DNA from: Nitrosomonas sp.
GTDB taxonomy: Bacteria > Pseudomonadota > Gammaproteobacteria > Burkholderiales > Nitrosomonadaceae
NCBI GenBank assembly: GCA_021774055.1
Contig: JAJFJL010000081.1
Coordinates: 1 to 37,871, forward strand
Direction of reading: 5' to 3'
DNA: 37,871 nucleotides
In this document: one piece after another, positions 9,301 to 37,871 of the stretch
Position numbering within the stretch: the stretch's first letter is position 1
Layout of the letters: each line of letters begins with the position of its first letter
Position numbers and translations under genes: made by a program
Notes under the pieces: model-generated
What the model saw: the letters and a program-made list of their open reading frames with translations, nothing else
Databases searched by the model: none
What the model was told of the DNA's origin: nothing

Positions 9301-9332
9301 AATATGTGATTATTCATAAATCTACTAGCTAA

Positions 9333-9490
9333 GGAACGTGCATGAAATAACTTGAGCATCTAGCTTTGTCGTTATACTCATCTTCTGCACTATGTAAACA
9401 GTTACATAGCCGTGCTGTGCGCCTGTTTGCACTCTTTGAATATGAGCATAAATCCTGTGCTAGTTGCTCAAGTTGTTTCATGCACGTTCC
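9333..9490. repeat. Family B palindromic element, complete copy (B2), between flgA and flgB
   Basis: A 158-bp near-palindrome runs from GGAACGTGCATGAAA to TTTCATGCACGTTCC, flanked by TAA on both sides (9330-9332 and 9491-9493), consistent with a 3-bp target duplication. The centre (9401-9423), read on the other strand, is GGCGCACAGC-ACG-GCTATGTAAC. It occupies much of the 376-bp flgA-flgB intergenic region, so it lies upstream of or within the promoter region of both divergent flagellar units. It has no coding capacity. Confidence 0.85.
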
Positions 9491-9676
9491 TAAGATGATT
9501 TAAGCTTTATTTATTTGTCTGTATCAGCATGATAATCATAAAAATTAATCACAACAGGAAAAGATAACGGTGATTTCTAGTGCTATTCGTTCATTCATAT
9601 TTGACTAGGCAGGAATAGCATAGTCGGCAGGCTGCAAGTACAACGGCAATTTCAGAAATTTCTTGAGGAGGTTTAA

Positions 9677-19471: not shown

Positions 19472-20677
19472 ATGCGTCTTAGTTCAATTACGATTCATGA
19501 TGAAGGGGTTGGTTCTATGCTTAAGCAGCAAGACACTCTTTTTAAAATCCAGCAACAAGTATCTACAGGCAGACGTATTTTAACACCTGCAGATGATCCG
19601 ATTGCTGCTGCACGCGCACTTGATATTACACAATCAATAGAGATAAATACACAATTTACTGAAAATCGTAACCAGGCTTCATCTAGCCTTGGTTTAGTTG
19701 AGGGAGTATTGGGTGATGTTACAAGGCTGATTCAAGATGTACAGACAGCGGCAGTTAGTGCCGGGAATGCTGCGTTTAGTGATACAGATAGACAAAGTGT
19801 AGCAACAGAGCTTAGAGGACGGCTTGAAGATTTAATAGGGCTATCAAATAGCCGAGACGCTAGTGGACAGTTTTTGTTTTCAGGTTACCAAGGAAGCACC
19901 AAGCCATTCGTTCAAACCGCAGCCGGAGTGCAGTATAACGGTGATCTTGGACAACGACAGGTACAAGTTGCTGCTTCACGTCAAATTGCGACTGGTGATT
20001 CAGGCACTAATATTTTTGAGCGAATAAAAGATGGTAATGGTGTTTTCACAACAGCTGCCACAGCTACAAATCAAGGTAGTGGGGTGATTGATAGCGGTGC
20101 AGTTACTGATCCGACAAGTTTAACCGGTAACGATTATAGTATTGATTTTTCTGTTGCAGCAGGTGTTACCACATATGTAGTTACTAATAATTCAACTGCA
20201 ACATCAACGGCACCAGTGGCATATACCAGTGGTGACGCTATTAGTTTTGATGGAATTCAATTTAGTATCAAGGGCGAACCTGCTAATAATGATCAATTTA
20301 CAGTTTTACCCAGCACCAATCAGAGTATATTCGACACCGTTAGTAATTTGATTGATGTATTGTCAACCCCAGTAAATGGCCCATCAGGTGGTACTAATCT
20401 AACTAACGGACTGAATACCGCTTTATCGAATTTAGAAAATGATCTTGATAATGTTCTTACAGTTAGGGCGTCGGTTGGTACACGTTTACAAGAAATTGAT
20501 GCATTACAGAATGTTGGTGAGGATACATCTATTCAGCTGCAGCAAAACCTATCACGATTGCAAGACGTAGATATGGCCAAAGCAATATCTGATTTAACAC
20601 AACAACGTGTATTTTTAGAAGCCGCACAACGGTCGTTTATTACAGTTTCCAATTTATCTTTATTTGATTTTCTATAA
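19472..20677 (+). CDS. flgL: Flagellar hook-associated protein 3 FlgL
   Basis: FlgL is the second junction protein, a flagellin homologue. The 401-residue protein has the flagellin-like N-terminus QQVSTGRRILTPADDPIAAA and NRNQASSSLGLVEGVLGDVT. The C-terminus has TVRASVGTRLQEIDALQNVG and DLTQQRVFLEAAQRSFITVS. The middle carries the motif GDAISFDGIQFSIKGEPANN, which resembles one in FlgK. A good AAGGA site precedes the ATG. Its TAA stop forms part of the 5-bp target duplication of element A4, inserted immediately after the gene. No flagellin gene follows in the window. Confidence 0.95.
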   Translation: MRLSSITIHDEGVGSMLKQQDTLFKIQQQVSTGRRILTPADDPIAAARALDITQSIEINTQFTENRNQASSSLGLVEGVLGDVTRLIQDVQTAAVSAGNAAFSDTDRQSVATELRGRLEDLIGLSNSRDASGQFLFSGYQGSTKPFVQTAAGVQYNGDLGQRQVQVAASRQIATGDSGTNIFERIKDGNGVFTTAATATNQGSGVIDSGAVTDPTSLTGNDYSIDFSVAAGVTTYVVTNNSTATSTAPVAYTSGDAISFDGIQFSIKGEPANNDQFTVLPSTNQSIFDTVSNLIDVLSTPVNGPSGGTNLTNGLNTALSNLENDLDNVLTVRASVGTRLQEIDALQNVGEDTSIQLQQNLSRLQDVDMAKAISDLTQQRVFLEAAQRSFITVSNLSLFDFL

Positions 20678-20679
20678 TT

Positions 20680-21084
20680 CCTAGATCCTGAAATGATCAT
20701 ACATACTTTTTACAATGGATTGTTATATATAGCAAACTTTATTCTTTGGGAATGTCAATAAGTATTCCATGCAGCAGCAATTCTCATTATGAAAATATTT
20801 TATTAAACAATAAGTTATAGCAAGCTAATTTTACCCTACTAGATCCGTCAAAAATTCTCGGATAACCAGATAACGGTAATTACTTGTTTTATAGGCCTAG
20901 GAGATAACTATTCGAACAACATCCTTTTTATACACATTCCTCATTGCTTGTCAATATTATTTTTGCAAACGTAACTAACTGAATACTAATATCTTCCATA
21001 ATGAGAATTGATGTCCATGCAGAATAAAGTTCACTCTATGAAACAATTTGTGCCACAGATTTTCATGGTTATTAGCGTACCAGG
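20680..21084. repeat. Family A element (A4) carrying a nested 239-bp MITE
   Basis: The left part (20680-20774) matches copies A2 and A3, including TTCTTTGGGAAT and CAATAAGTATTCCA. The right part resumes at 21014 with GCAGAATAAAGTTCACTCTA. The right tip has drifted to CCAGG in place of CTAGG. TAATT flanks the element on both sides (20675-20679 and 21085-21089) as a 5-bp target duplication. The duplication overlaps the flgL stop on one side and the stop of the convergent CNP1-like gene on the other. Confidence 0.82.
20775..21013. mobile_element. 239-bp MITE nested in A4 with a 9-bp target duplication
   Basis: The ends CAGCAATTCTCATTATG (20775-20791) and CATAATGAGAATTGATG (20997-21013) are 17-bp inverted repeats with one mismatch. 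TCCATGCAG is directly repeated on both sides (20766-20774 and 21014-21022). Copies A2 and A3 show the uninterrupted sequence (TCTACGCAGAATAA and TCCACGCAGAATAA), so paralogous empty sites support an insertion. The interior has no convincing gene. Confidence 0.82.
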
Positions 21085-21087
21085 TAA

Positions 21088-21612
21088 TTATTGATGTAAT
21101 GATTTAACTTTAGGATGAATGCCTGCTTTTAATGCACGAATAGCTTCTTGCGGGCTGCCTACAATAGATTTTAGTGGGCAAAAATAATACTTAAATAGCT
21201 CTTGCTGAGCATAATCTTGCGTTATATTTTCTAGCCGTTGCCACTCGGTCAGATGTGACTGAGACCAGGTGCCGTCACTACGACCTAATGCATAGCGTTT
21301 TCTTTCTTTTGTTGCGCAACGCAACCCTTCAAAGCTAACATTCATCACTTTAGATGAAGGCTCAATAACTAAACTGTAGCGAATTACTCCATCATCTCCA
21401 ACCTGAATAGATGTTTCATCAATATAATGTCTATGGCTGCTAATAGGTCCAATATCAAAAAAAATCAGATTCTCAGGCTTAGGATAACTAGGCAGTTGGG
21501 CCTGTAATTCAAACCAAATCTTTTCATCATCAAATTCATCTTTAAAAACACTTTTACCGGCACAAGCGGTCATCATAAAAGCTGCGCATAATAACCAGTA
21601 TTTTGTTTTCAT
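21088..21612 (-). CDS. CNP1-like family lipoprotein
   Basis: The 174-residue protein has a signal peptide ending MMTACAG (a lipobox-like site, Cys17), so it is probably a lipoprotein. The mature part, with FKDEFDDEKIWFELQAQLP, ENLIFFDIGPISSHRHYIDE, RYSLVIEPSSKVMNVSFEGL and RCATKERKRYALGR, matches my memory of the CNP1-like family of betaproteobacteria. I know of no assigned function. The ATG overlaps the stop of the DUF3501 gene (TAATG), implying translational coupling with the Fe-S operon. The last codon overlaps the target duplication of element A4. Confidence 0.72.
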   Translation of the reverse strand: MKTKYWLLCAAFMMTACAGKSVFKDEFDDEKIWFELQAQLPSYPKPENLIFFDIGPISSHRHYIDETSIQVGDDGVIRYSLVIEPSSKVMNVSFEGLRCATKERKRYALGRSDGTWSQSHLTEWQRLENITQDYAQQELFKYYFCPLKSIVGSPQEAIRALKAGIHPKVKSLHQ

Positions 21613-25954: not shown

Positions 25955-26116
25955 CCTAGATTATGCAAGTAATCGCACACATACTGCACAACAGATTGTT
26001 CCATATAGCAAACCTTGTTCTTTGGGAATATCAATAAGTATTCTACGCAGAATAACATTTACTATATGAAACAATCTGTTGGACATTATATTGCACGGTT
26101 GCTTGCAGGATCTAGG
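25955..26116. repeat. Family A element, complete copy (A2), upstream of the lipoprotein gene
   Basis: The 162-bp element runs CCTAGATTATGCAAG to CTTGCAGGATCTAGG and is flanked by TAACA on both sides (25950-25954 and 26117-26121). Internally it contains CAACAGATTGTTCCATATAG and the inverted ACTATATGAAACAATCTGTT. Its distance to the lipoprotein ATG is only 35 bases, so it lies within or upstream of that gene's promoter. Confidence 0.88.
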
Positions 26117-26241
26117 TAACAATCGTTATTTATTTCTCAGTCACCAGTTTTCTATCTTCTAGCGACATGCCCACACATTCTATCTGACTTTGCTAACAAG
26201 ATAAACGGTATTAAAAAAATCTAATGTCAGAATGTTCTTTA

Positions 26242-26399
26242 GGAGCGCGTATGGAATAAATTAGGCAACTAGCGCAGGATTTATATTCATATTCAAAGAA
26301 TGTAAACAGGCGCATAGCACGGCTATATAACTGTTTACATAACGCAGAAGGCGAGCATAAATACAAAGCTAGTTGCCTAATTTATTTCATGCACGTGCC
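26242..26399. repeat. Family B palindromic element, complete copy (B3)
   Basis: The 158-bp copy runs from GGAGCGCGTATGGAATAAAT to TTTATTTCATGCACGTGCC, flanked by TTA (26239-26241 and 26400-26402). The core at 26309-26331 reads GGCGCATAGC-ACG-GCTATATAAC. The right TTA is the stop codon (TAA on the minus strand) of the L,D-transpeptidase at 26400, so the insertion duplicated the stop trinucleotide. Confidence 0.87.
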
Positions 26400-26966
26400 T
26401 TAGTGAATCTTTATCATTACACCTGGTTCTAACCACTGGCTAAGCTGATCAATTTGTTCGTTGGTTAAGGCAATGCATCCATTAGTCCAGTTGAACAGAT
26501 TATGAACTTCTAGATCTCCATTACCGATGCCGTGTATCCCAATATAACCACCCAGTGGCGTGTGTTGAGGCGGAGATTGTTCAGCGTTAGTAGCTTTTAG
26601 AATGGAATGCCAAGTTTCTTTGGTAATTCTATTTTCTATATATGCACGTTGCGCCGTCTCACGGTTTGGATAATCAAGACCAAAAAAACGATAATAACGA
26701 CTCTCATTGTTTATCCAGCCAATTCTAAATTGTCCTAATGGTGTTTTGTTGTCATTTTTTATCTTAGAATAAGTTGTCCCAAAGCGTCCGATGGAAATAT
26801 TATCAAATTCCATTTGGACAGCTTCTCCCTTCATCACTGTCAGAGTATATTCGCTTGTATCTACATCAACCCATATATCATTAGCATTGACCGATAGATT
26901 GAAAAACAACAACCCGATAAAACTTATAAATACGAAATAACAACTCTGTAATTTTTGTCTTAACAT
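26400..26966 (-). CDS. L,D-transpeptidase family protein (YkuD, TNGC variant)
   Basis: The 188 residues comprise a signal peptide (hydrophobic 10-25, cleavage near NANA) and a YkuD domain. The signature is IGIHGIGNGDLEVHN ... WTNGCIALTN, with His145 and Cys164. The usual SHGC is replaced by TNGC, so the histidine before the cysteine is Asn. That variant occurs in one branch of YkuD proteins, so it does not by itself mean inactivity. The second gene of this type within 2 kb, it may act in 3-3 crosslinking or lipoprotein release rather than attachment (inference). It starts 3 bases after the DUF3047 gene ends, so the two are very likely co-transcribed. Confidence 0.85.
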   Translation of the reverse strand: MLRQKLQSCYFVFISFIGLLFFNLSVNANDIWVDVDTSEYTLTVMKGEAVQMEFDNISIGRFGTTYSKIKNDNKTPLGQFRIGWINNESRYYRFFGLDYPNRETAQRAYIENRITKETWHSILKATNAEQSPPQHTPLGGYIGIHGIGNGDLEVHNLFNWTNGCIALTNEQIDQLSQWLEPGVMIKIH

Positions 26967-37465: not shown

Positions 37466-37626
37466 CCTAGATCCTGCAAGTGATCACACACATACTGCAC
37501 AACAGATTGCTCCATATAGCAAACTTTATTCTTTGGGAATATCAATAAGTATTCCACGCAGAATAAAATTAACTCTATGAAACAATTTGTTATACATTAT
37601 ATGCGAGATCACTTGCAGGATCTAGG
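37466..37626. repeat. Family A element, complete copy (A3)
   Basis: The 161-bp element runs CCTAGATCCTGCAAGTGATC to GATCACTTGCAGGATCTAGG, with perfect tips. It is flanked by TATCA on both sides (37461-37465 and 37627-37631). It is very similar to A2 across the whole length, including TTCTTTGGGAATATCAATAA. This is the best reference copy in the window. Confidence 0.9.
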
Positions 37627-37731
37627 TATCACACGATTTTAAAGTAACACTAAAGGAGTAGATGCGTGGGACAGATTATGCCAGCATTAAATTTAACTGT
37701 CTGTGACAATATACACGCGCCATGTAACTTA

Positions 37732-37871
37732 GGAGCGCGCATTAAATAACTTGAACAACTAGCTTTGTATTTATATTCATCTTCTGTGTTATGCAAACAG
37801 TTACATAGCCGTGCTATGCGCCTGTTTGCACGCCTTGAATATGAGCGTAAATCCTGCGCTAGTTGCTCAAG
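37732..37871. repeat. Family B palindromic element (B4), cut by the window end
   Basis: It starts GGAGCGCGC after TTA (37729-37731) and matches B2 through the core (37800-37812 region, GTTACATAGCCGTGCTATGC) into the second arm, ending at CTAGTTGCTCAAG. About 18 more bases would complete it. Confidence 0.85.

Follow-up and report, generated by a model that had tools for sequence, protein, structure and literature searches.

A 239-bp MITE nested in a MITE-like repeat between two convergent genes of Nitrosomonas

MITEs, e.g., MITEAba12 (PMC6382973) and Nezha, which have been reviewed (PMC10969869), are small, non-coding elements with terminal inverted repeats, a target duplication and ends common to those of a full insertion sequence (IS). 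All these features were present in a 239-bp insert found in a Nitrosomonas genome, within the 37,871-bp stretch of DNA analysed here (the window), whereas the insert is unlike typical MITEs in that two copies of the 239-bp form were found, its ends are of the ISNCY type, and no autonomous partner was present in the assembly. Such a partner in the same genome is common for MITEs, but not required. Similar to the ISNCY-type ISs, with the ISMae2 group as a possible lead, the insert has inverted ends of the CAGCAATTCTCATTATG type and target duplications of 9 bp, but it is only 239 bp long, lacks a transposase gene and has an unrelated interior. Because it is devoid of the DDE transposase of this IS group, the insert could only be a derivative of an ISNCY-type IS, not a full member. 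Our literature search found no paper containing the end sequence and none on Nitrosomonas MITEs of such kind.

The source assembly, from Nitrosomonas, is 3.07 Mb in 256 contigs and 84% complete. Two convergent genes, flgL (bp 19472–20677, + strand) and a CNP1-like gene (bp 21088–21612, - strand), are the left and right neighbours of the nested insertion, respectively; between them lies a copy of repeat A, designated A4, together with its 239-bp insert. In the best relatives, these two genes had matches of about 65–73% located on separate contigs or far apart, which left no usable orthologous empty site for this gene junction.

Structure and likely parentage of the 239-bp insert

The insert (bp 20775–21013) is bounded by 17-bp terminal inverted repeats, CAGCAATTCTCATTATG on the left (bp 20775–20791, + strand) and CATCAATTCTCATTATG, read as the reverse complement, on the right (bp 20997–21013, - strand), which are identical at 16 of 17 positions, with the similarity running to 26 bp at 88%. 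It is flanked by two copies of the 9-mer TCCATGCAG (bp 20766–20774 and bp 21014–21022), identical at 9/9 positions. These ends and the exact duplication bear out the earlier note, made from the sequence alone, in which a 239-bp MITE within A4 had been proposed. Scanning the window for 9-bp direct repeats abutting inverted ends (at least 15/17 identical, 100–400 bp apart) gave exactly one match, i.e., this insert, and the same scan of 40 Markov-1 random windows gave none. No ORF of 80 aa or longer was found within the insert. It is a non-autonomous DNA transposon (MITE), and the nested insertion is real, well supported and of an ordinary kind. Comparison of its interior with transposase loci and ISNCY-type ISs revealed no shared sequence, and searching the interior in 60 other genomes of the genus returned short chance-level matches only.

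Following a left end that resembles the one of the insert, we arrived at a transposase of 447 aa encoded by Nitrosomonas sp. OFTM23 (G075), a strain of the same GTDB genus as the genome of the window. Among Nitrosomonas relatives, this IS alone had a left end that matches, and its right end was cut off by another element. Relatives of the OFTM23 transposase identified in GTDB are carried by ISs of 1.40–1.66 kb, many of which had CAGCAATTCTCATTATG or a one-mismatch form of it at both ends, together with perfect 9-bp duplications. Such ISs occur in both cyanobacteria and proteobacteria: a copy in Pseudanabaena biceps was flanked by the duplication GAGATTTAT, and 9-bp duplications were found for the copies in Desulfoferrobacter suflitae (four different 9-mers), Leptolyngbya PCC 7375 (two) and Arthrospira sp. 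PCC 9108 (many). One homologue, WP_013335080.1 of Gloeothece verrucosa, has been annotated as "ISNCY family transposase"; Pfam puts the transposase group weakly with DDE_Tnp_1, the NCBIfam and Pfam matches being below their cut-offs. Four transposase paralogues of G020 (31%) were set aside as parents, their ends being different.

The ends of the 239-bp MITE match those of the 1.4–1.66 kb ISs over 17–26 nt, and a parent type making 9-bp duplications, as envisaged in the earlier note, was thereby found outside the own genome. Based on the shared CAGCAATTCTCATTATG ends and the duplication length, these ISs are the likely parent; the link is drawn from these two features since the interior of the MITE shares nothing with the ISs. 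No autonomous parent IS turned up in the assembled genome (84% complete, 256 contigs), where a single fragment of 32% identity was seen, at C93; we therefore infer that an ISNCY-type transposase, probably acting in trans, moved the MITE. This DDE transposase would have recognised the CAGCAATTCTCATTATG ends, made the 9-bp duplications and inserted the MITE into A4 as a pre-existing A copy. The element adds a MITE family, and the common ends and duplication length tie it to ISNCY-type ISs across phyla.

Host element A4 and the order of insertions

Family A is MITE-like, with a 161-bp consensus, ends CCTAGATCCTGCAAGTGATC and a 5-bp TNNNA duplication, which was identical in 36 of 65 copies versus 3.4 expected from shuffles. 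In A4, the duplication is TAATT (bp 20675–20679 and bp 21085–21089), its left copy overlapping the flgL stop codon (bp 20675–20677) and its right copy that of the CNP1-like gene (bp 21088–21090, - strand), such that it spans the abutting stop codons of the two convergent genes (TAA-TTA). Because both stop codons are overlapped by TAATT, insertion of A4 separated flgL and the CNP1-like gene and damaged neither.

Sequence derived from A extends from bp 20680 to the insertion point at bp 20774, including the first TCCATGCAG, and continues to the right of the insertion at bp 21023–21043 (both + strand). It is followed by CAATTTGT (bp 21044–21051, + strand), an 8-bp sequence common to A and a second family, E, and by a right tip (bp 21052–21084, + strand) corresponding to the end of E. 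Family E is a high-copy MITE of 159 bp with at least 40 strong matches, and its duplication, CTAG, was identical in 19 of 30 copies; the copies of A and E considered here, gathered from listed genome matches, are a subset of each family. Counted through the terminal TA at bp 21085–21086, the tip matched E at 33/36 positions versus 23/38 for A, as derived from the alignments and their scores, and among 67 A copies, a tip nearer to E than to A was seen in A4 alone. On these alignments, A4 is a mosaic, with about 130 bp of A on the left and an E tip of about 33 bp on the right, joined at CAATTTGT. Like the 239-bp insert, A and E are MITE-like, with A hosting the insert and E having supplied the right tip of that host, but they differ from the insert in ends and duplication lengths and so presumably use other transposases.

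That A4 was inserted first and the MITE thereafter, as had been claimed, is certain, since the duplicated TCCATGCAG is itself A sequence. The earlier note had gone further, regarding the right tip of A4 as the most decayed and A4 therefore as older than two uninterrupted copies in the window, A2 (bp 25955–26116, + strand, duplication TAACA) and A3 (bp 37466–37626, + strand, duplication TATCA), which were taken to be younger. The tip, being E sequence fused at CAATTTGT, carries no age signal. Over 125 A-derived positions, A4, A2 and A3 differed from the A consensus at 17, 10 and 3 positions (13.6%, 8.0% and 2.4%), respectively. A4 has thus diverged significantly more than A3 (p = 0.0017) and looks older than this copy, whereas its difference from A2 is not significant (p = 0.22). 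Moreover, five of the 17 A4 differences are common to 21–27 of the 66 other A copies and are therefore a subfamily mark rather than an indication of age.

It follows that the full chronology, i.e., an old A4 with a decayed tip, then the MITE, and A2 and A3 later, is unlikely, although it is in keeping with the position of the A-derived part of A4 among the most diverged of the 67 copies and with the low divergence of A3. Besides the E origin of the tip, the lack of significance against A2 and the subfamily variants, A4 retains an intact TAATT duplication, and an uninterrupted paralogue provides the pre-insertion sequence, not its own date. Only the placement of A4 ahead of the MITE is firm; the tip cannot rank A4, A2 and A3, and the dating claim beyond this order largely fails. 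A4 clearly illustrates how sequence from a fused neighbour can be mistaken for decay of an end, and why an empty paralogue gives no date of its own. Taken as a whole, a MITE mobilised by an ISNCY-type transposase into A4, with A4 being an A/E mosaic and only the A4-before-MITE order firm, is very probably the correct explanation; direct observations cover the ends of the insert, both of the 9-bp duplications, its second copy and the empty paralogues described below, and the parent-type ISs with like ends and duplication length.

Origin of the A/E junction

At least 8 of the 30 E copies examined were found at the CTAG within the tip of an A element. A-E nests are many genome-wide, e.g., L238, L248, L253, L259, L260, L264 and L046. 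By analogy with those E copies, E may have inserted at the CTAG in the tip of A4, and a deletion between two copies of CAATTTGT, plus a small end deletion, would then have fused A and E. We infer that the A4 tip is most simply obtained from such a nest in which the stretch between the CAATTTGT repeats was later deleted; the fusion could also have arisen by template switching.

Alternatively, the A/E fusion may have arisen elsewhere and entered this locus in one piece, generating the TAATT duplication. This would be in agreement with the exact TAATT copies flanking an A-type left end and an E-type right end, but it is doubtful given that E commonly inserts into the CTAG tip of A in place, that the own duplication of A would survive a fusion in situ, and that the genome search revealed no second copy of the fusion. 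Transposition of A4 as a hybrid-ended MITE, with its left end from A and its right end from E, accordingly appears quite improbable; were it true, a single transposase would have tolerated an end belonging to a family whose duplication length differs. The locus provides an instance of MITEs (A, E and the ISNCY-type MITE) that have become nested and fused in a Nitrosomonas genome rich in repeats.

Uninterrupted sites and relatives of the insert

As the earlier note had observed, A2 and A3 are uninterrupted at the position matching the insertion site of A4. Alignment extended this empty site to 66/66 near-full-length A copies other than A4 that were examined in the own genome (67 including A4), the uninterrupted site in most of them reading TCCACGCAG or TCCATGCAG, the two commonest forms; the empty site is thus shown for family A, beyond A2 and A3. 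A search for other copies of the insert, likewise suggested earlier, revealed a second one at G000:C219:8193–8430, 80% identical over its length, which is situated outside any A element and has its own 9-bp duplication, ACAAATGAC, identical at 9/9 positions. No further copies of the 239-bp form were found in the own genome, and the insert is mobile. A reading in which the 239-bp segment had instead belonged to the interior of a longer ancestral A and was lost by deletion from A2 and A3 is extremely improbable and was excluded within the own genome: its location inside A4 was the sole support found, whereas the segment is missing from all A copies but one (66 of 67), is bounded by inverted ends and a 9-bp duplication of its own, and recurs outside A, where another 9-mer is duplicated.

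A shorter element of about 152 bp, designated X, has ends like those of the 239-bp insert, with 22-bp perfect inverted ends CAGCAATTCTCATTATGGAAAA. Copies of this MITE were located at three contig ends (G000 C9:14557–14697, C10:1–141 and C11:1–141; L084, L085 and L086, respectively), so that X is multi-copy and breaks the assembly; it has probably been active recently. Like the 239-bp MITE, the C11 copy of X lies within an A element, at a position other than the insertion site in A4. In two other Nitrosomonas genomes, elements of 152–158 bp with the same kind of ends were noticed (G051:C73:1881–2032, L092, and G063:C59:19337–19494, L093); their interiors were alike by eye, and they were without an intact 9-bp duplication. 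In addition, a solo MITE-like end, CAGCAATTCTCACTATG, was found at G000:C147:1539–1581 (L088), 1 base from a copy of another repeat family, with AAGGAACGTGCATGAAATAA ends. Palindromic repeats with AAGGAACGTGCATGAAATAA-type ends are present in the window at bp 1571–1630, 9329–9493, 26239–26403 and 37722–37871.
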